This document shows positions 4,151 to 32,906 of a stretch of DNA of 36,228 nt, in pieces. Origin of the DNA: Nitrospiria bacterium (GTDB lineage Bacteria; Nitrospirota; UBA9217); the NCBI GenBank assembly GCA_919902495.1, contig CAKKRC010000002.1, positions 1-36,228 on the forward strand. The letters are read 5' to 3'. Below the pieces are notes generated by a model. That model ran no database searches and was not told the origin of the DNA. It saw nothing but the letters and a program-made list of their open reading frames with translations. How positions within the stretch are numbered: the stretch's first letter is position 1; the number at the start of each line of letters is the position of its first letter. A program made the translations under genes and the position numbers.

Positions 4151-4222
4151 TGCGGGATCAGCGAGCGATCAGAATAACTGATAATTTCCCGAACCCGGAC
4201 AAGCCGGAACCAAAGGTCATCT

Positions 4223-4389
4223 CACGCAAAGCCGCAACCAAAAGTAGGCGCTTCTAAGCGAGGACGCAAAGGAAATCTTTAGGTTCTTGTTTTAAGCAGA
4301 ATGACCTGCTTTTCTTTGCGAGCTTGGCGACTTTGCGCGAAATATTCTTGCCATTTTGTGTAGAATTTTATTTCTTAGTTACTAAGGAC
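4223..4389. repeat. Repeat element copy 1, with inverted ends and a structured core
   Basis: This fills most of the 339-base gap between the DUF4124 and receiver-PilZ genes, which otherwise holds no gene. Inverted arms CACGCAAAGCCGC (4223-4235) and GCGACTTTGCGCG (4327-4339) pair with two mismatches. Inside is a 36-bp core (4240-4275) that matches 30839-30874 at 32 of 36 positions, with a hairpin CGCTT/AAGCG at 4249-4260. A second module, CTTAGTTACTAAGGAC (4374-4389), matches 30889-30904 at 15 of 16. The two modules are about 100 bases further apart here than in copy 2. Confidence 0.65.
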
Positions 4390-4394
4390 CTAAG

Positions 4395-4418
4395 CTCCTT
4401 GCAGCTTGCTGCAAGGAG
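4395..4418 (+). promoter_or_regulatory. Hairpin that buries the ribosome-binding site of the receiver-PilZ gene
   Basis: CTCCTTGCAGC (4395-4405) pairs perfectly over 11 bases with GCTGCAAGGAG (4408-4418). The AAGGAG at the 3' side is the only ribosome-binding site before the ATG at 4430. In the folded RNA the site is closed, which would repress translation unless the hairpin is opened or bypassed. There is no following T-run, so a terminator is unlikely. Confidence 0.6.
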
Positions 4419-4429
4419 CGTCAACCTGC

Positions 4430-5104
4430 ATGAAGAATGTCATCATTGCACAAACCATCCTCGATGCTATCGAACTAAGAACAACGTTGTTCGGCAGGGG
4501 AAGTATCAAGCTGCATACGGCGCGGTCCTCGGAAGATATCCTGGATATCCACCGCCGGTTAAAGGCGGACCTCATCATCACGGAGTTCTCCTTTCCGGAG
4601 ATGGGAGGAGTCCGGCTTTGTTCCTCGATACGCGGTGAACCGGGCCTCAAGGACGTCTCCCTCATCATGTACTGTGATGGCGGCCCTGTATTCCAGGCCG
4701 CCTGCCTCGATGCGGGCGCGAATGCCGTCGTCCAGAAGCCGGTGGACGCGTTCAGCCTGTTCTCAAAAATATCCGAACTGATCGTCATTCCGCAGCGGAA
4801 GGATATGCGGGTGCTCCTGCGCATTTCCGTGGAAGGCCGGCAACAGGACGCCTCATTCGTCGCTACGTCGTATAATATCAGCCTTTCCGGGATGCTCCTG
4901 GAAACCAAACGAGAGCTGAACAAAGGCGACAAGCTGTCCTGCTCGTTCAGTATTGCGCACGCAGAGGTCAACGCCCAGTGTCTGATCATGCGGGTGGACA
5001 GGACCGATGAGGGACGGTTCCGTTACGGGGCCAAGTTCCTGAGCCTTGATACGAAGTCTATTGTGGTCATCGAGCAGTATGTGAAAAGCAGGATCAGACC
5101 TTGA
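4430..5104 (+). CDS. Degenerate receiver (REC) plus PilZ domain protein
   Basis: The 224-residue product has an N-terminal receiver-like domain (about 1-118) and a C-terminal PilZ domain (about 120-224). The receiver lacks the usual acidic pair after strand 1 (VIIAQ instead of a VDD motif) and has Glu52 (LIITEFSFPEM) where the phosphoacceptor Asp should be; Lys103 in VQKP is kept. It is probably not phosphorylated, or is locked in an active-like state. The PilZ domain has R123-x-x-x-R127 and N149-x-S-x-x-G154, the residues that bind cyclic di-GMP. A role in c-di-GMP response (motility, surface or envelope traits) is inferred from the family. Start at 4430, with AAGGAG 11 bases upstream inside a hairpin. 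Confidence 0.85.
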   Translation: MKNVIIAQTILDAIELRTTLFGRGSIKLHTARSSEDILDIHRRLKADLIITEFSFPEMGGVRLCSSIRGEPGLKDVSLIMYCDGGPVFQAACLDAGANAVVQKPVDAFSLFSKISELIVIPQRKDMRVLLRISVEGRQQDASFVATSYNISLSGMLLETKRELNKGDKLSCSFSIAHAEVNAQCLIMRVDRTDEGRFRYGAKFLSLDTKSIVVIEQYVKSRIRP

Positions 5105-5112
5105 CGGCGACT

Positions 5113-5584
5113 GCATTGCAAATTGGAAATTGCAAAGTGCAAATTGATAAGACAAATCTAATGTAAATTGAAAAATATAGATGGAAAACAAGCGGAACAG
5201 CTTTCAGAACGCTTTTTGTCGTATGCAGTTGATGTCGTAAAGATATCTACGCTGCTGAGAAAGACTGCGACAGGACGGGAGATCGCCGGACAATTATTGC
5301 GGTCGGGTACCTCGTCAGGGGCGAATTACGAAGAAGCGCGGGGCGCTCAGAGCAGGGCGGATTTTCTTCATAAACTTCAGATCGTTCTCAAGGAACTGCG
5401 CGAGTCATTGTTTTGGCTCAGGTTGATCGATAAAGCACAGATCATAAAAGAACAGGGTGTCGCAAGTGCCATCGACGAGACCCGTCAGTTGGGCAATATC
5501 ATTGCGAAATCTGTCGTTACCGCCAAGAAACAGAAATAATTTTCAATCTGATATTTGCACTTTCCAATTTGCGCTTTACAATGC
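5113..5584 (+). mobile_element. Inverted-repeat cassette carrying a four-helix-bundle gene (IVS-like)
   Basis: The left end begins GCATTGCAAATTGGAAATTG (5113) and the right end, read on the minus strand from 5584, begins GCATTGTAAAGCGCAAATTG. Both arms then share GTGCAAAT. The arms are AT-rich, made of ATTGCAAA-type units, and point inward around a single gene (5168-5539). The right end stops 2 bases before the leuS ribosome-binding site. Genes of this family are known from intervening sequences in 23S rRNA flanked by complementary arms; here the same design sits between protein genes. No transposase is encoded. Confidence 0.6.
5168..5539 (+). CDS. Four-helix-bundle protein (23S rRNA intervening-sequence family)
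   Basis: The 123-residue product is all-helical and matches the four-helix-bundle family first seen in 23S rRNA intervening sequences and related to the Avd accessory protein of diversity-generating retroelements. Key features are AQLLRSGTSSGANYEEARGA (about 42-62), the family signature, then RADFLHKLQIVLKELRESLFWL and a C-terminal helix ending KKQK. The start is probably TTG at 5168; there is no clear ribosome-binding site, and the next ATG is out of frame. The molecular function is not established. No reverse transcriptase or template repeat lies nearby, so a retroelement role is not supported. Base composition is more AT-rich than the neighbours. Confidence 0.85.
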   Translation: MKNIDGKQAEQLSERFLSYAVDVVKISTLLRKTATGREIAGQLLRSGTSSGANYEEARGAQSRADFLHKLQIVLKELRESLFWLRLIDKAQIIKEQGVASAIDETRQLGNIIAKSVVTAKKQK

Positions 5585-5596
5585 CTGGAGGTTCGT

Positions 5597-8068
5597 TTGG
5601 AAGAACGTTATAACCCGAAGACCGTGGAAGATCGATGGCAGCAGCAGTGGGCGGCCAATAAGACCTTCAAGGTCACCGAGGACGCGTCAAGGCCCAAGTA
5701 TTACTGCCTCGAAATGTTCCCCTATCCGTCGGGCAGGATCCACATGGGCCATGTGCGGAACTATTCCATCGGCGACGTGGTGTCCCGATACAAGCGGATG
5801 CGCGGGTTCAATGTGCTCCATCCCATGGGGTGGGACTCATTCGGCCTGCCGGCGGAGAACGCCGCCATCAAGCACGGTATCCATCCCTCGCAGTGGACGC
5901 TGGAGAACATCGCGTTCATGCGCGATAAGCAGCTGAAAAGCATGGGCCTCTCCTATGACTGGGACCGCGAGGTGACTACCTGTCTGGAGGAGTACTACCG
6001 CTGGAACCAGTGGCTCTTCCTGAAGATGTACGAGAAGGGAATAGCATATAAAAAGCGCTCCTACGTGAACTGGTGCCCTTCCTGCAGCACGGTCCTTGCT
6101 AATGAACAGGTGGAGGAGGGATTGTGCTGGCGCTGCAGTTCGGTCGTGACATTCCGCGAACTGGAGCAATGGTTCTTCAAGATCACGGCCTACGCCCAGG
6201 AATTGCTCGACCATTGCGACAAGCTTCCCGGCTGGCCTGAGCGGGTCCTCACCATGCAGCGGAACTGGATCGGCAAGTCCACGGGTGTCGAGGTGGACTT
6301 CACGCTGGATGGGTCCGGTGAGAAGCTCACGATCTTCACCACCCGGCCGGACACGCTCTATGGCGTCACGTTCATGAGCATCGCTCCTGAGCATCCCATG
6401 GTGGAGACGCTCATCAAGGGAAAACAGCAGGCCGATGCGGTCCGGGCCTTCTGCCAGCGGATCATGGGTGAGGACAAGGCGGTACGCACCGACGAGAATC
6501 AGGAAAAAGAAGGCATTTTCACCGGGGCCTTCGCGGTCAATCCGCTGAACAACGAAAAGGTGCCCGTCTGGGCCGGCAACTTCGTGCTCATGGACTACGG
6601 GACCGGCGCCATCATGTCCGTCCCCGCCCATGACCAACGGGACTTCGAGTTCGCGAAGAAGTACCAGCTCCCGATCCGTGTGGTGATCCAGAATGCGGAC
6701 CAGGACCTGGACGCGGCCACCATGCGGCAGGCATATGTGGGCGAAGGCGCTATGGTCAACTCAAGACCTTTTGACGGGACCCCGAACGTTCCGGGCAAGG
6801 AGAAGGTCGCGGAATATGTCGAGCAGAAGGGCTACGGCAAGCGGACGGTGAACTGGCGGCTCCGCGACTGGGGCATCTCCCGCCAGCGCTACTGGGGCAC
6901 GCCGATCCCGATCATCTACTGCGAACGCTGTGGGACCGTGCCGGTGCCTGAACTGGACCTCCCGGTGATACTTCCGACGAACGTCGAGTTCACCGGCAAG
7001 GGCCGTTCACCGCTTGCGGAGTCCGCGTCATTCCGCGACACGACCTGTCCGAAATGCGGCGGAAGCGCCCGGCGCGAGACCGACACGATGGATACCTTCG
7101 TGGATTCTTCCTGGTATTTCCTGCGCTATTGCTCGCCGAAGCATACCGAGGCCCCCTTCGACAAGAAAGCTGCAGGCTACTGGATGAGCGTGGACCAGTA
7201 TATCGGAGGCATCGAGCATGCAGTGCTCCATCTCCTGTACGCCCGGTTCTTCACCAAGGTGATCAGGGACCTCGGCCTGTTCGACGGCGACGAACCGTTC
7301 CAGAACCTCCTGACCCAGGGCATGGTGATCAAGGATGGCGCCAAGATGAGCAAGTCCAAGGGCAATGTGGTGGACCCGGACTTCATCATTTCCAAATACG
7401 GCGCTGACACGGCACGGCTGTTCTCGCTCTTTGCCGCGCCGCCGGAGCGCGATCTCGAGTGGAACGACCAGGGCGTTGACGGCGCATACCGGTTCCTCCA
7501 CCGGGTCTGGACGGTCGTGTACAAGTACCATGGCAAGATCAGGACCGTACAGCCTGCGGGAAGGGAAGCCACGGGCGACCCGCTCTACCGCAAGACCCAT
7601 CTTACGATAAAAAAGGTTACCGAGGACATCGAACGGGAGTTCCACTTCAATACGGCAATTGCGGCGCTTATGGAACTGGTGAATGAATTGTACGATTTTA
7701 CCGCGCAAGGCGTACCGGACGACAAACTGCCCGTGCTTCGCACCGCCATCGAAGCGCTGATATTGCTGATAGCACCGTTCGCCCCTCATGTTGCCGAGGA
7801 GCTTTGGGAATCGCTCGGCAACACCACCGGTGTTGCCGGCACGGACTGGCCGTCCTTCGATGCCGGTGCGCTTGTTTCCACTGAGGTGACGGTGGTCGTT
7901 CAGGTGAACGGGAAGGTGAGGGGCAAGCTCACGTTGCCCGCCGGCCTTACAGACAAGGAGATTGAAGCGGCTGCCCTGGCAGAAGGCAAGGTCAGGGAAC
8001 ACCTTGCAGGAAAGACGCCGAAGAAGGTCATCGTTGTTCAGGGGAAACTCGTGAACGTGGTAGTCTAA
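5597..8068 (+). CDS. leuS: Leucyl-tRNA synthetase
   Basis: LeuS charges tRNA-Leu in the cytoplasm. The product is 823 residues, normal for a bacterial LeuRS. TTG at 5597 is chosen as start: GGAGG (5587-5591) lies 5 bases before it and the protein then begins [15 protein letters not shown], as in the family; the open frame further upstream reads into the neighbouring cassette. The class I signature HMGH is at 49-52 and KMSKS at 583-587. Zinc-type cysteines occur in CPSC...CWRC. The CP1 editing domain (about 225-420) contains the TTRPDTLYG motif, and a C-terminal anticodon domain and tail complete it. lptE follows in the same direction and may be co-transcribed. Confidence 0.97.
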
Positions 8069-8073
8069 ATCCA

Positions 8074-8100
8074 GTGCGAAGTGCGGAGTGCGGAGTGCGA
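8074..8100 (+). repeat. Heptamer array GTGCGGA overlapping the lptE start
   Basis: Four tandem heptamers follow the leuS stop: GTGCGAA, GTGCGGA, GTGCGGA, GTGCGA. The array supplies both the GGAG ribosome-binding site (8085-8088) and the GTG start codon (8095) of lptE. Related heptamers occur at 14740, 17781 and 24033. Confidence 0.7.
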
Positions 8101-8622
8101 AATAACATCATCATAATCGTGCTGCTGGCGTCAATCCTTGGTGTGCACGCCTGCGGATACCGGCTTTCCGGAAAGGGATCTCTGGTGCCTGAGGGGGCAA
8201 AGACCATCGCCGTTCCCGCATTCATCAATCATACCAATGAGCCCTATGTCGACCTGGCAGTGACCAAGGCGGTCGTGGACGAGTTCATTGCGGACGGAAG
8301 ACTTCGGATCGTGGATGTGGAGATTGCCGACCTCGCGCTGCGCGGCGTTGTCGTGAAATATGAAGTGGCAGCGCTTTCCTTCACGGCGGATTCCTATGTC
8401 CAGCAGTATAAAGTGCGTATCGTGGTAAATGCAAGCCTCGACGACCTCAGGTCGAAGAAGACCATCTGGAAAGAGGCGGGCATCGAGGCTGTTTTCATCT
8501 CCGACTATAAGGTGGCCATCGGCGACATCACCTCCACGAAGTCCGGGAAGGAATCAGCCATAAAAAAAGCGGGCCAGGACATCGCCTGGACGCTCAGAAG
8601 CAGGGTGCTGGAAGGATTTTGA
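8095..8622 (+). CDS. lptE: LPS-assembly lipoprotein LptE
   Basis: LptE is the outer-membrane lipoprotein plug of the LptD translocon that inserts lipopolysaccharide. The chosen GTG at 8095 gives a 175-residue protein with a compact lipoprotein signal: MRNN, IIIIVLLASILG, then lipobox VHAC, followed by the typical GYRLSGKGSL opening. An upstream GTG at 8074 would add seven residues encoded purely by repeat units. The body shows the family pattern TIAVPAFINHTNEPYVDLAVTKAVVDEF and a late helix ending LRSRVLEGF. It is followed after 3 bases by holA, an lptE-holA pair also seen in proteobacteria. Its presence indicates an LPS-bearing outer membrane. Confidence 0.88.
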   Translation: MRNNIIIIVLLASILGVHACGYRLSGKGSLVPEGAKTIAVPAFINHTNEPYVDLAVTKAVVDEFIADGRLRIVDVEIADLALRGVVVKYEVAALSFTADSYVQQYKVRIVVNASLDDLRSKKTIWKEAGIEAVFISDYKVAIGDITSTKSGKESAIKKAGQDIAWTLRSRVLEGF

Positions 8623-9642: not shown

Positions 9643-9726
9643 GGTGAGAGGGTAGGAAGGTGAGAGGGTAAGCGACAGGAATGGAAACGGGTTGTTTCTC
9701 AACTTCCCAACTTCTTACCTTCTCAC
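9643..9726. terminator. Purine-octamer hairpin between convergent holA and rpsT
   Basis: The left arm is four octamers (GGTGAGAG, GGTAGGAA, GGTGAGAG, GGTAAGCG at 9643-9674). The right arm (9696-9726) is the pyrimidine counterpart (TTCTCAAC, TTCCCAAC, TTCTTACC, TTCTCAC). They can pair over about 30 bases with G-U pairs allowed. The placement between convergent stops suggests a bidirectional terminator, but there is no clean T-run. Confidence 0.5.
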
Positions 9727-9741
9727 GTTCGCGATTTTCGA

Positions 9742-10180: not shown

Positions 10181-10216
10181 ACACGAATGTCACGAATGAG
10201 ACGAATAGCACGAATA
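10181..10216 (+). repeat. Nonamer array ACACGAATG type
   Basis: Four tandem nonamers stand upstream of murJ: ACACGAATG, TCACGAATG, AGACGAATA, GCACGAATA. The rest of the rpsT-murJ spacer (10076-10180) holds no gene. Confidence 0.65.
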
Positions 10217-10252: not shown

Positions 10253-11837
10253 GAACATCAAGGTGGCAAAGGCGGCCGGGGTGGTGGGGGCGGCGACGCT
10301 CCTGTCCCGCATCATGGGGTATGTGCGGGACATGGTGATGTCATGGTCCTTCGGCACCAGCGCCGCTGCTGACGCTTTTTACGTTGCCTACCGCATACCG
10401 AACATGCTCAGGGAACTGCTGGCCGAGGGCTCCATGTCAGCGGCCTTCATCCCGGTCTTCACCGAAACCCTGACGAAGGGGACGAAGGAAGATGCGCGTC
10501 GTCTGGCGAATGCCGTGTTCGCGCGGCTCCTGGTCATCCTGGTGATCGTCACCGGCATCGGGATCATCTTTGCGCCCTATATCGTCAAGGCGATCGCCTG
10601 GGGCTGGAAGATCGAGAACCAGCGGGAAAAGTTCCTCATGGCCTCCACGCTAACGCAGATGATGTTTCCCTATTTGCTGTTCGTCGGTCTCGCGGCGCTG
10701 GCCATGGGAATGCTCAATTCGCTCCGGTCCTTCCTTACACCGGCGCTTTCGCCGGTCATGCTGAACATCATGACCATCAGCGGAGTGATCTTCCTGGCTC
10801 CGCGGATGCCGGAGCCCATCATGGGGGCCGCCATCGGCGTGGTGCTGGGCGGAATGTGCCAGTTCCTCATTCAGCTTCCCGGCCTCAGAAAGCAGGGGAT
10901 GATGCTGAAGCCCCAGTTCGTACCGAGCCATCCCGGTGTCCGGAAGATCGGCAAGCTCGCGCTCCCGGTGCTCCTCAGCTCCTCGGTGACCCAGCTCAAT
11001 ATCTTCATCAGCACCATCCTTGCCTCGTTCCTGGCCACCGGGAGCATCACCTTCCTGTTCTACGGCATGCGGTTCATCCATTTTCCTCTGGGGATCTTCG
11101 GCGTGGCCATCGCCACTGCCGTACTCCCGACGCTTTCCGCCCAAGCGGCGAAACAGGAGATGGAGAATTTCCGCGAGACACTGTCGCTGGGTCTCCGGCT
11201 GGTGTTTTTTATCATGTTCCCGGCCATGGCAGGCCTTATCATGCTCCGGATCCCCATTGTGAATCTCCTGCTTGAGCACGGCGAATTCAACCGTCTATCC
11301 ACGCTCGGCACGGCAACGGCGCTCCTCTACTATGCAGTCGGACTTTGGGCATTCGCCGGGGTGCGGGTGCTGTCGCAGGCGTTCTATTCGCTCCAGGACA
11401 CGAAGACCCCGGTCAGGATCGCAATGCTGGCCCTGGTCGCGAACATCGTGCTGAGCGTGATACTCATCCAGACGCCGCTTCAGCATGGCGGCCTCGCGTT
11501 GGCGAACTCGCTTGCAGCTGCCCTGAACATCACCCTGCTCACCAAGCGGCTTCGCAAGAAGATCGGACACATGGACGGCAGGCGGATATTCTCGTCGCTC
11601 CTCAAGATCGTTCCCGCGTCGATCTTCATGGGCGCCATCGGCTGGTGGGTCAGCAGAAATCCCGTGTGGGACTCGCCGGGGAACATCCTGTACAAGATCG
11701 AATGGCTTGCCGGCGGCATGGCCGCGAGCGTGGTCTTCTATGTCCTCGCCATGTGGGCCATGCGGAGCGAGGAGCTCAGGTTCCTGTGGGGGATGGTGAG
11801 GAGAAAAAACAGACACGGTGACACGGGGACGCGGTGA
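10245..11837 (+). CDS. murJ: Lipid II flippase MurJ
   Basis: MurJ flips the peptidoglycan precursor lipid II across the inner membrane. The 530-residue product is a MOP-family transporter with about 14 membrane helices. Family hallmarks include an N-terminal VVGAATLLSRIMGYVRDMVMSW, the region AFYVAYRIPNMLRELLAEGSMSAAFIPVF (about 45-73), and RVLSQAFYSLQDTKTPVRIA (about 377-396). The C-terminal residues RHGDTGTR and the stop are encoded by the octamer array at 11812-11859, so the array has invaded the gene end. The start at 10245 lacks its own close ribosome-binding site (see 10232-10252). Confidence 0.95.
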   Translation: MSENIKVAKAAGVVGAATLLSRIMGYVRDMVMSWSFGTSAAADAFYVAYRIPNMLRELLAEGSMSAAFIPVFTETLTKGTKEDARRLANAVFARLLVILVIVTGIGIIFAPYIVKAIAWGWKIENQREKFLMASTLTQMMFPYLLFVGLAALAMGMLNSLRSFLTPALSPVMLNIMTISGVIFLAPRMPEPIMGAAIGVVLGGMCQFLIQLPGLRKQGMMLKPQFVPSHPGVRKIGKLALPVLLSSSVTQLNIFISTILASFLATGSITFLFYGMRFIHFPLGIFGVAIATAVLPTLSAQAAKQEMENFRETLSLGLRLVFFIMFPAMAGLIMLRIPIVNLLLEHGEFNRLSTLGTATALLYYAVGLWAFAGVRVLSQAFYSLQDTKTPVRIAMLALVANIVLSVILIQTPLQHGGLALANSLAAALNITLLTKRLRKKIGHMDGRRIFSSLLKIVPASIFMGAIGWWVSRNPVWDSPGNILYKIEWLAGGMAASVVFYVLAMWAMRSEELRFLWGMVRRKNRHGDTGTR

Positions 11838-11859
11838 CGCGGAGACAAGGGGACAAAGA
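11812..11859 (+). repeat. Octamer array GACACGGN across the murJ stop
   Basis: Six tandem octamers: GACACGGT, GACACGGG, GACGCGGT, GACGCGGA, GACAAGGG, GACAAAGA. The murJ stop codon (11835-11837) lies inside. The array ends just before the ribosome-binding site of the next gene and is mirrored by an inverted octamer array at 12434-12469 after that gene. Confidence 0.75.
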
Positions 11860-12433: not shown

Positions 12434-12469
12434 TTCTCTGTGCTCTCTGTGTCTCTGTGTCTCTGTGGC
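12434..12469. repeat. Octamer array GTCTCTGT after the methyltransferase gene
   Basis: TTCTCTGT, GCTCTCTGT (one extra base), GTCTCTGT, GTCTCTGT. On the minus strand this reads ACAGAGAC, similar to the GACACGGN array at 11812-11859, so the selenogene is bracketed by inverted arrays. Confidence 0.7.
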
Positions 12470-12516
12470 TGATCTGGTTCTTCGTTCCACATTCTTTTGT
12501 TAAAGGGAAAAGTACA

Positions 12517-13152: not shown

Positions 13153-14739
<1,587 letters not shown>

Positions 14740-14770
14740 TTTCGGATTTCGGATTTCGGATTGCGGATTG
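14740..14770 (+). repeat. Heptamer array TTTCGGA directly after guaB
   Basis: TTTCGGA three times, then TTGCGGA and TTG, starting at the base after the guaB stop. The period and the CGGA ending match the GTGCGGA arrays at 8074, 17781 and 24033. Confidence 0.7.
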
Positions 14771-14777
14771 TTTGTAG

Positions 14778-14846: not shown

Positions 14847-15071
14847 ATGTCCAAGATCACCAGCATCAGCAAAGCGCGCGAGAAGAGAACGAAGAATACC
14901 GACACGGCAGTCCGGCATGACGGATTCCAACCCTGTAGTCCCGACATGACCATCTGCGGGGACTGTCAGGATAATCGCGCGAAGATAAAATGCCCGCGGC
15001 TCAAAGAGTGGCTGGCGAAAAGAAACATTCGACACGGAGACATGGGGACACGGGGACGCGGAGATCTTTAA
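14847..15071 (+). CDS. Small cysteine-containing hypothetical protein
   Basis: A 74-residue frame begins MSKITSISKAREKRTKN and carries Cys30, Cys37-x-x-Cys40 and Cys49, suggesting a small metal site. I do not recognise a family. The ribosome-binding site is weak (AGGA 3 bases before ATG). The last residues are encoded by the octamer array at 15031-15062, so the original stop may have been lost to repeat growth. It could be a real small gene or a chance frame. Confidence 0.35.
   Translation: MSKITSISKAREKRTKNTDTAVRHDGFQPCSPDMTICGDCQDNRAKIKCPRLKEWLAKRNIRHGDMGTRGRGDL
15031..15062 (+). repeat. Octamer array GACACGGN
   Basis: GACACGGA, GACATGGG, GACACGGG, GACGCGGA in tandem. This is the same family and orientation as 11812-11859. 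Confidence 0.7.
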
Positions 15072-15162: not shown

Positions 15163-16734
15163 ATGGAAGAACGACTACAAAAGATTCTATCGGCAGCAGG
15201 GATCGCCTCACGCCGGGCAGCCGAGGAGATCATCCTCGAAGGCCGCGTGCGGGTGAACGGGAAGGTCGTGACCGAACTGGGAGCCAAGGCCGACCCGGAC
15301 AAAGATCACGTCAAGGTCGACGGCAAACTGATCAACCCGAAACAGCCCAAGGCCTACATCATGCTGAACAAACCGGCGGGTTTCGTCACGACCATGTCGG
15401 ACCCCGAGGGCCGACCCATCGTCGCGAACCTCCTGAAGGGCGTCAAGGTCCGTGTCTATCCCGTGGGCAGGCTGGATTATGACACCGAGGGACTGCTCTT
15501 GCTGACCAACGACGGGGATTTCGCCCATCTGGTCACCCACCCCCGGCACGAACTTCCGAAGACCTACCTCGTAAAGGTCAAAGGCGCGCTGGAGGACCGG
15601 CACGTCGCAAGCCTGGAACAGGGCGTATTTCTCAAGGACGGCAAGACGGCGCCCGCCAGGGTCAGAAAGCTTCGTAAGGAAGAGTCCAACTCCTGGGTCG
15701 AGATCACGATCCACGAAGGCAGAAAACGCCAGGTACGTCGCATGATCGACTACACCGGCCATTCCGTGATCAAGCTCAAACGCACCAAGGTCGGCAACCT
15801 GAACCTCGGAGACCTTCCGATGGGCGCCTATCGTCACCTGACCCTCGACGAGGTGCGGGGACTGCGTGAAATGGCGACGCAGGAAGAAGCGAAGCGTCCG
15901 GCGCCGAAGTTCATTGCGCAGAAAAAGAGCGAAACAGCGCAGGTCAAGACCGTACAGCGCGATGAGGGAGATGGGGAGATATGGGGCCGCGGTGAAGAAA
16001 AACGAAGGTCCCGCGTTCATGCCCCCCGCGGTGCGGCAGGAGTGCGAGGAAGCATTGGCGAACGTCCGGCGTCAGGAACGGCCGGACAGCGAACGCCGTG
16101 GCAGGGAAAAGAAAAGGACAGCAAGGCTCGCGGGGGAGCCGTAGACTATCGCCCGCGAAGTGCAGGCGACAGGAGACCGGCGTTCAGTGGAAAGCCGGCA
16201 GCAGCGAGGCCGCCCTGGAACGAGCAGCGAGGTCCGTCCGCTGGTCCGCGACCGTCCGGAGAAAGACCGCGGCCATTCGCCGGGCGGGCAATGGATCATC
16301 GGGGTCCCCGGCAGGAAGAGCGGGGGACGATGGCAGGCGGCAGAGAGCCTGGAAGTGACGAAAAACGTACCTGGCGTCCGGCGGCCCCGGGCAAAGTGTA
16401 CGGTACCCGGAACCAGGGGCCGGCTAGATCTTCGAGCTTTAAAACGGGAGGCCCGAAGAGGACCGACGCAAGACCGAGACCAACGGCGGCACCGGCGACG
16501 GATCATCGGGGTCCCCGGCAGGAAGAGCGGGGGACGCGAGCAGTCGGCAGAGAGCCTGGAAGTGACGAAAAACGTACCTGGCGTCCGGCGGCTCCGGGCA
16601 AGGTGTACGGTACCCGGAACCAGGGGCCGGCCAGATCCTCGAGCTTTAAAGCGGGAGGCCCGAAGAGGCCTGGATCGCGTCCTTCCGGACCGCGGCCGTC
16701 AAATCCTCGTGGCAGCGGCGGCCGCCGCAGATAA
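15163..16734 (+). CDS. rluB: Pseudouridine synthase, RluB/RsuA family, with long disordered tail
   Basis: The enzyme isomerises a uridine in rRNA (23S for RluB). The first 235 or so residues are a normal enzyme: an S4 RNA-binding domain (1-60, MEERLQKILSAAGIASRRAAEE), the catalytic domain with GRLDYDTEGLLLLTNDG and nucleophile Asp105, and EGRKRQVRRM. About 285 further residues form a tail rich in Arg, Pro, Gly, Ala and Ser, with two near-identical blocks 69 codons apart (DHRGPRQEERGT... to ...SSSFKxGGPKR). The tail is probably disordered and RNA-binding, as in some E. coli RluB and RhlE homologues. AAGGAG lies 5 bases before the ATG. The exact target uridine is inferred from the family. Confidence 0.9.
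   Translation: MEERLQKILSAAGIASRRAAEEIILEGRVRVNGKVVTELGAKADPDKDHVKVDGKLINPKQPKAYIMLNKPAGFVTTMSDPEGRPIVANLLKGVKVRVYPVGRLDYDTEGLLLLTNDGDFAHLVTHPRHELPKTYLVKVKGALEDRHVASLEQGVFLKDGKTAPARVRKLRKEESNSWVEITIHEGRKRQVRRMIDYTGHSVIKLKRTKVGNLNLGDLPMGAYRHLTLDEVRGLREMATQEEAKRPAPKFIAQKKSETAQVKTVQRDEGDGEIWGRGEEKRRSRVHAPRGAAGVRGSIGERPASGTAGQRTPWQGKEKDSKARGGAVDYRPRSAGDRRPAFSGKPAAARPPWNEQRGPSAGPRPSGERPRPFAGRAMDHRGPRQEERGTMAGGREPGSDEKRTWRPAAPGKVYGTRNQGPARSSSFKTGGPKRTDARPRPTAAPATDHRGPRQEERGTRAVGREPGSDEKRTWRPAAPGKVYGTRNQGPARSSSFKAGGPKRPGSRPSGPRPSNPRGSGGRRR
16293..16674 (+). repeat. Two ~175-bp direct repeats inside the rluB tail
   Basis: Copy 1 starts at 16293 and copy 2 at 16500, an offset of exactly 207 bases (69 codons), so the frame is kept. 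Each covers about 175 bases with only scattered differences. Confidence 0.85.
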
Positions 16735-17773: not shown

Positions 17774-17780
17774 AGCGGCA

Positions 17781-17808
17781 GTGTCGAGTGCGGAATGCGG
17801 AGTGCGGA
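17781..17808 (+). repeat. Heptamer array GTGCGGA
   Basis: GTGTCGA, GTGCGGA, ATGCGGA, GTGCGGA in tandem, 7 bases after the DUF4253 gene stop. Confidence 0.7.
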
Positions 17809-17888
17809 AGATCAGTGTTCAGGGATAGTTCATCGACCATGAAGCTATTTAGCATGGATTACACTCCATATATTTGAAACAGTAAAAC

Positions 17889-26335: not shown

Positions 26336-26348
26336 GACAATAGTCATT

Positions 26349-26438
26349 GCCACGAAGTCACGAAGGCACGAAGTTTAAATCAGTAGTTGTGATCCGAATA
26401 ATGAGGCGCAATTCTTTGTGTCTAAGTGCCTTCGTGGC
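26349..26438. repeat. Inverted octamer pair (CACGAAGN) upstream of psd
   Basis: The left arm 26349-26369 contains the octamers CACGAAGT, CACGAAGG (a third follows). The right arm 26418-26438 is its reverse complement at 17 of 21 positions, including an unbroken 9-bp match GCCACGAAG/CTTCGTGGC. The right arm ends next to the psd ribosome-binding site CTGGAG. Confidence 0.7.
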
Positions 26439-30777: not shown

Positions 30778-30787
30778 GGAATTTCAC

Positions 30788-30962
30788 CACGGAGTCACGG
30801 AGACACGGAGAAAAGCACACCGGAAAGTTTACCGCAGCAAAAGTAGGCGCCTCAAGGCGAGGACGCAGAGGAAAGCGAAGTCGTACCGCTTAGTTATTAA
30901 GGACTGGTATGCTGCCGGGTAAATAGTGTTTAACTTGCCGTTATCTGTGTTCATCTGTGGTT
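30788..30962. repeat. Repeat element copy 2 with arrays at both ends
   Basis: The spacer between leuC and leuD holds no gene. It starts with three octamers (CACGGAGT, CACGGAGA, CACGGAGA; 30788-30811) and ends with two decamers (ATCTGTGTTC, ATCTGTGGTT; 30943-30962) that read ACCACAGAT on the other strand, so the ends are roughly inverted. Inside are the 36-bp core (30839-30874), with the hairpin CGCCT/AGGCG at 30848-30859, and the module CTTAGTTATTAAGGAC (30889-30904), both shared with 4223-4389. Confidence 0.65.
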
Positions 30963-31497: not shown

Positions 31498-31704
31498 ATG
31501 AGAACGATCCAGTCGAATATCAGCCAGGACTCTTTAAGACCACTCTGTGAGCCCTGCGTATATTACAGCAAGAACCTAGACCCGTCATTTTCCACTCCTG
31601 CAGAGCCATTACAAAACCGATGCGGATTGGATTTTGCTCCTGAGGATGATGGATGCGTCGAGATGCGGACGAATAACTGCAGAGCGAGAAAGAGCGCAGG
31701 CTAA
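31498..31704 (+). CDS. Small cysteine-rich hypothetical protein
   Basis: A 68-residue frame with Cys17-x-x-Cys20, Cys42, Cys53 and Cys61, a spacing that could bind a metal. No family is recognised and no ribosome-binding site is clear. Its stop codon lies inside the REP-like palindrome at 31695-31717. It is the only protein-like frame in the 309-base leuD-leuB gap; a chance frame is possible. Confidence 0.35.
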   Translation: MRTIQSNISQDSLRPLCEPCVYYSKNLDPSFSTPAEPLQNRCGLDFAPEDDGCVEMRTNNCRARKSAG

Positions 31705-32862: not shown

Positions 32863-32906
32863 AACAAATTCCGATTTCATAATATATACAGAAGGGATGA
32901 GCTAAA

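Follow-up and report, generated by a model that had tools for sequence, protein, structure and literature searches.

The window, a stretch of 36,228 nucleotides from a Nitrospiria bacterium, contains at 5113-5584 a cassette of two inverted arms with one four-helix-bundle (4HB) gene between them. The cassette lies between a response regulator-PilZ gene (RR-PilZ; 4406-5104, forward strand), whose stop is located 8 nt before the cassette start, and leuS, of which the Shine-Dalgarno sequence GGAGG (5587-5591) and the TTG start at 5597 (together 5587-5599, forward strand; start supported by the leuS starts of relatives) follow directly 3'. The gap between the end of the right arm (5584) and the ribosome-binding site is 2 nt. 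The left (5') arm (5113-5150, forward strand) is purine-rich and built of the degenerate tandem heptads ATTGCAA, ATTGGAA, ATTGCAA, AGTGCAA and ATTGATA, which match the reverse complement of the right arm (5540-5584, reverse strand), an inverse heptad array with a CAATGC end recognised by inverted-repeat matching and Tandem Repeats Finder. The latter program reports period 7 with the unit ATTGCAA in 4.6 copies at 5115-5146 of the left arm and a period-14 array at 5553-5582 of the right. Over 32 nt (5113-5144 and 5553-5584) the arms are 84% complementary with exact GCATTG/CAATGC ends, a second inverted pair (5118-5150 and 5540-5572) overlaps the first, and the left-right complementarity is ~9.5 s.d. 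above shuffles of the cassette's own flank. The original prediction of GCATTG inverted ends around one 4HB gene, inserted directly before the leuS ribosome-binding site, is borne out by these positions. The AT-rich arms it described do exist, but they are tandem 7-nt arrays and not plain AT-rich repeats.

The open reading frame between the arms (5168-5539, forward strand, TTG start) matches the profiles PF05635 (E 7e-14) and TIGR02436 'four helix bundle protein' (E 3.5e-21), and AlphaFold2 modelled its product with a mean pLDDT of 92.6. Foldseek aligned the model with BT_0352 (2rld, E 4e-6), with Xcc0516 (2gsc) at a TM of ~0.7-0.8 and a weaker E than for 2rld, and with Avd (4dwl, 8ub7) at probability 1.00 and a TM of ~0.7-0.8, but at an E of 0.08-0.3. 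The PF05635 and Foldseek matches agree with the assignment, made beforehand, to the family and fold of the proteins of 23S rRNA intervening sequences (IVSs). Homologues start with ME(D/E)KA..QLS at an ATG whose equivalent in the window (5181) is shifted out of frame by one base, leaving TTG as the sole start from which the window frame opens. Judged from its sequence, the window copy may be starting to decay, the alternative being an assembly error. Neither the open reading frames nor a profile search revealed a transposase or nuclease encoded within the cassette, in line with the predicted lack of a mobility enzyme, and arrays of this kind are dispersed without any cassette-encoded enzyme. 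An Rfam search of the window returned zero family matches, and promoter and terminator scans gave results at chance level.

The cassette was followed through a family sample of 14 related genomes (G000, the window genome, to G013), mostly MAGs. The gene order RR-PilZ to leuS is conserved over much of this family. The original prediction had proposed looking for the empty site in relatives, and the leuS site is indeed empty in eight genomes (G004, G006, G008, G009, G010, G011, G012 and G013). Four genomes, G000, G002, G005 and G007, carry the cassette at leuS, with a DUF4124-like gene as its upstream neighbour in G005 and G007. The congener G001 has lost the gene and retains short remnants of the arms. 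Neither an insertion event nor an intermediate nor a target-site duplication was seen, the empty sites here and at the arrays being too diverged for comparison of such duplications. Because the insertion is found in four genomes, has been lost in one relative and is apparently damaged in the window, the window copy is best seen as an old insertion, passed on by vertical descent and now apparently starting to decay. It is not a recent mobile insertion, and the mobility that had been envisaged is not supported in that form.

The design at leuS recurs throughout the family. PF05635 genes were detected in 14 of 14 genomes at 1 to 11 copies per genome, and ~60 4HB genes are enclosed by arms of this kind, whose 7- or 8-nt unit is particular to each gene. 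The further copies that had been anticipated for the window genome amount to seven PF05635 genes in all, and four of the others (L009-L012) have the same architecture with the units GTCGGCA, 8-nt GACGCGGG, 8-nt GAAGTTGG and TTGCGGA. Left-right arm similarity exceeded 95% of mismatched pairs in 44 of the 54 4HB copies with enough flank. The best flank period was 7 in 39 and 8 in 11 of 57 copies, whereas 300 random positions gave 27 and 15, and the modal arm length is 5 units. At the dinB site both arms carry TTGCGGA in G000 and GTGCGGA in G001 and G004, a single example of the pattern that concerted arm evolution would give; a wider comparison of the two arms used windows that held conserved host sequence. 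Purine-rich arm polarity (81 of 86) was considered as a mark of gene orientation and dropped; since an inverted pair is symmetric, the polarity means only that the 5' arm is purine-rich from the outside in.

A scan of named genomes extended this picture, with at least 568 relatives, of which the best 80, chosen by similarity, were taken and 76 were analysable. The best 80 come from Nitrospirota, Acidobacteriota, Nitrospinota, Planctomycetota, Bacteroidota, Verrucomicrobiota, Chloroflexota, Patescibacteria and other phyla. Within this selection period 7 was best in 71 of 76, compared with 19 of 240 positions drawn at random from these loci, and the arms scored above control in 67 of 76. The combination of a 4HB gene with inverted arrays of short tandem units recurs in many bacterial phyla. 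Period 7 was also found in 12 of 12 copies on plasmids of named organisms (Nostoc, Anabaena, Planktothrix, Treponema, Bernardetia and others), and some of these plasmids carry perfect arrays, (TAATTCG)4 in Dolichospermum being one. The left arm of this Dolichospermum copy (L376) has two perfect arrays in a row, TAATTCG four times followed by TTGGAAT six times, and the right arm has the first unit only. On plasmids of Pseudanabaena, Nostoc and Anabaena (L368, L371, L372) the 4HB cassette sits beside cas1 or between cas2 and cas1, and on other cyanobacterial plasmids it has a helicase or DUF1156 gene on one side and a methylase or Swt1-HEPN gene on the other.

The key feature, which the original prediction missed, is that the heptad arrays of the cassette are matched by hundreds of gene-less arrays elsewhere. 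The window alone contains gene-less inverted pairs of 8-nt CGCAAAG units (4221-4342) and of the 8-nt GAAGGTGA/GAAGTTGG type (9643-9730), both absent from G001. Single gene-less arrays on the forward strand comprise GTGCGGA directly after the leuS stop (8069-8107; also GTGCGGA in G001), TTTCGGA at 14732-14775 (a GGGAGTC-type array at the same site in G001), 8-nt GACACGGG at 15029-15066 (absent from G001) and GTGCGGA at 17779-17809 (TTGCGGA at the same site in G001); further arrays are 8-nt GACACGGG at 11810-11858, 8-nt CACGAAGT at 26345-26376 and 8-nt CACGGAGA at 30784-30819. On the reverse strand, an 8-nt TCTCTGTG array occupies 12435-12474, a site that is empty in G001. A single G001 contig aligns with the whole window at ~85% identity and breaks mostly at arrays, and about half of the window arrays are missing or have a different unit there. 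A separate sequence, AAAAGTAGGCGCTTCTAAGCGA, which includes a small palindrome, lies inside or beside 8-nt arrays in the window (4240-4275, ~30835-30865) and in G001 (C131, ~31630-31660), and looks like a second small element inserting into them.

In ~430 kb of G000 (partly masked), periods 7 and 8, and also 14, were in excess; inverted pairs numbered ~19, besides 46 single tracts, a few of which are N-masked. Further gene-less arm pairs made of the unit seen in the leuS cassette lie on C51, C93 and C26 of this genome. As the loops of gene-less pairs are unrelated to one another, copying of whole elements is not evident. Arrays are dispersed close to gene ends: with simple open reading frames as gene calls, 21 of 28 array starts lay within 30 nt of a stop codon, compared with 9.0 expected and a maximum of 15 in 2000 simulation runs. 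Unit abundance differs greatly between genomes. A three-unit TTGNAAA pattern had 151 matches in G000, 388 in G005, 255 in G003 and 117 in G007, compared with 1-6 in five genomes, counts which are not array numbers since overlapping matches within one array were counted separately. GTGCGGA, GTAGACA and GCATAGG gave similar between-genome contrasts, and reversed-pattern controls gave ~0-5 matches in most genomes, with a maximum of 29 for GTAGACA in G012.

The units follow the proteins. Clades of the protein tree share a common unit, namely TTGNAAA, GTGCGGA, 8-nt GACGCGG, 8-nt GAAGTTGG, GGGTCCA, GTAGACA or GCATAGG, and three of the unit-sharing clades were found at two different genomic sites. 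Across 72 cassettes, protein identity correlated with unit similarity (Spearman 0.54; Mantel test excluding same-site pairs, 0 of 1000, permutation maximum 0.20). Further, the presence of a gene clade predicts the abundance of its unit in the genome (0 of 5000 permutations, and 1 of 5000 with genes per genome kept). Several genomes are rich in a unit and lack the matching clade (TTGNAAA in G003, 255; GTAGACA in G005, 166; GTGCGGA in G011, 201; also GCATAGG in G005), for which MAG gaps, gene loss or another cause may be responsible. The units share the degenerate heptad NRANTKM, with 2.5 bits compared with 1.6 (maximum 1.7) in position-permuted controls. With a dN/dS of 0.02-0.15 where dS is unsaturated, the 4HB protein is under purifying selection. 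The clade-unit coupling could arise partly from descent of the cassette as one unit. Taken together, the recurrence of the design in many phyla and the hundreds of gene-less repeat copies per genome in this family suggest that the 4HB protein family and the short repeats are connected.

Repeats of a like kind are also found near GxxExxY genes. These genes (PF13366, PDDEXK_3, of the PD-(D/E)XK fold family) were present in each of the 14 family genomes, and 30 PF13366 loci (L241-L270) with arms had a median arm score of 35.5 versus 18 for mismatched pairs. Their arm units are mostly of 8-10 nt, such as CACAGAGA and the period-10 ACACGGATTA. Within the family of 14 genomes, the GxxExxY genes at these loci are enclosed in cassettes like those of the 4HB genes. 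The window itself has a 9-nt tandem array of ACACGAATG in 3.9 copies at 10181-10215, which resembles the GxxExxY-associated units.

The arrays themselves are of known kinds. Dispersed tandem units of 7-8 nt, typically 3-5 in number, are described as short tandemly repeated repetitive (STRR) or heptameric repeats in cyanobacteria and also from Xanthomonas, Beggiatoaceae and Geobacter. Xanthomonas GGGAATC arrays have four units, are mostly transcribed and stop-proximal, and form ~70 inverted pairs (PMC4692102). The units of Beggiatoaceae are TAACTGA, with 7-nt slippage proposed (PMC4679880), and the paired 7-8-nt arrays of G. metallireducens were guessed by their authors to be global-regulator sites (PMC2700814). 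Inverted array pairs are common to Xanthomonas, Geobacter and the cassette class. The coupling of gene and array is the new finding; the literature search found no link of 4HB or GxxExxY to repeats, although most subscription journals lay outside it and priority is not certain.

Comparison with systems that contain related proteins or related repeats places the cassette more closely. Like the 23S rRNA IVSs of Leptospira and Coxiella with their S23/IVP open reading frame (PMC4990558), the cassette has one PF05635 frame between inverted arms and no mobility enzyme, and IVS forms without a frame are known (PMC4990558). Unlike them, it lies in a spacer between protein genes and not in an rRNA helix, and it has 7-nt tandem arms, with gene-less counterparts that run into the hundreds in the rest of the genome. 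No rRNA was found near the 4HB gene in 40 cross-phylum relatives examined, and 23S (LSU) rRNA is absent from the G000 assembly. The 23S IVS seems to be one particular case within a far larger class that resides mostly in the spacers of protein genes. Avd, of diversity-generating retroelements (DGRs), shares the 4HB fold and forms a pentameric ring in an RNA-protein complex (4dwl, 8ub7), and Xcc0516 is a pentamer of four-helix bundles according to Lin 2006, as cited in PMC4990558. In contrast to DGRs, no reverse transcriptase stands beside the cassette; the single one in G000 is on another contig (C10). A parallel in organisation is that of REPINs and RAYTs (PMC3116915), extragenic inverted doublets with hundreds of gene-less copies and few repeat-flanked cognate genes. 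However, the cassette class is made of short-unit tandem arrays and not of REP palindromes, and its gene encodes a four-helix bundle without the HUH tyrosine transposase of RAYTs, PF05635 being all that is encoded. Y1 transposases are found elsewhere in 14 of 14 family genomes. The lack of a transposase in the cassette also distinguishes it from insertion sequences and composite transposons.

The explanation towards which we lean, with some reserve, is a REPIN/RAYT-like one. The cassette would belong, as a gene-bearing member, to a domain-wide class of dispersed inverted arrays of degenerate 7-8 nt tandem units, and these short-unit arrays would have as cognate partner a ring protein that is not a transposase. 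The pentameric 4HB protein would recognise the unit of its own cassette, either as RNA or as single-stranded DNA, perhaps with one heptad per ring subunit, the modal arm having five. Such binding would let the protein keep or spread arrays in trans by means of host replication or repair enzymes, much as RAYT-REPIN pairs work, minus the transposase. Reverse transcription as the spreading step is not favoured because a reverse transcriptase was found in 5 of the 14 family genomes and in none of the other nine, which include the array-rich G005 and G001. Counting against the favoured explanation, gene-bearing copies occupy identical sites in different genera. Chief among the rivals is a regulatory system of protein and binding sites, in which the 4HB protein would be a post-transcriptional regulator or mRNA-end binder, the stop-proximal arrays its regulon and its own arms a means of autoregulation. 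The location of arrays just 3' of stop codons fits this idea, as do the clade-unit coupling, the purifying selection, the mostly transcribed and stop-proximal Xanthomonas arrays and the global-regulator guess for Geobacter. Nevertheless, we consider it unlikely: loss or replacement of about half of the window arrays in a relative of 85% identity would be rapid turnover in a regulon, many unit families occur together in one genome, and arrays outlast the lost gene in G001 at leuS.

Arrays could also grow by replication slippage and invert by template switching in hairpins, the 4HB gene being carried by chance or tolerated. Degenerate tandem units common to both arms, unrelated gene-less loops and the 7-nt slippage proposed in PMC4679880 would all be expected if the gene were a passenger of this kind, but 4HB genes in such arms across many phyla, the match of clade and unit at different sites and the shared NRANTKM motif would then go unexplained, which makes this account improbable. 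Least probable, and hardly to be expected, is that RNase III would cut a long stem in the leuS leader and free the cassette RNA as in fragmented 23S rRNA. The protein family is the same, the Coxiella IVS offers a precedent (PMC4990558), and the arms could form a stem, being paired in the predicted MFE fold of the cassette RNA. Yet the energy of the whole-cassette fold is ordinary, not stronger than that of shuffles (z -0.55), the arms are degenerate arrays and not perfect stems, and the cassette and the 40 relatives noted above are away from rRNA.

The REPIN/RAYT-like reading can be taken further, in a more tentative proposal that is plausible without being the expected outcome. It holds that a new class of elements has 7-8 nt arrays with 4HB rings and 8-10 nt arrays with GxxExxY nuclease-fold proteins, that each array would be read unit by unit by its cognate protein, and that spread would occur in trans without a known transposase or reverse transcriptase; the 23S IVSs, STRRs, Xanthomonas GGGAATC repeats and Geobacter 'regulator sites' would be its members or derivatives. 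Both the 4HB S23/IVP proteins and the GxxExxY proteins form widespread families labelled 'function unknown', the heptameric arrays are widespread repeats labelled 'origin unknown', and pairing the proteins with the arrays makes both questions testable through the binding of own versus foreign units. The pairing also offers a frame for the origin of 23S rRNA IVSs, a question standing since about 1990, and makes the 4HB protein a candidate partner for the global regulator proposed in Geobacter.

Two further features of the window are apparent in its alignment with G001. A 207-bp tandem duplication (1.8 copies, 94% matches) at 16293-16668, in a region of open reading frames, gives extra alignment pieces. 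At a point corresponding to window position 32899, G001 (C131, ~52400-53060) has an extra gene of ~650 bp, which looks like a methyltransferase, between genes that adjoin in the window.
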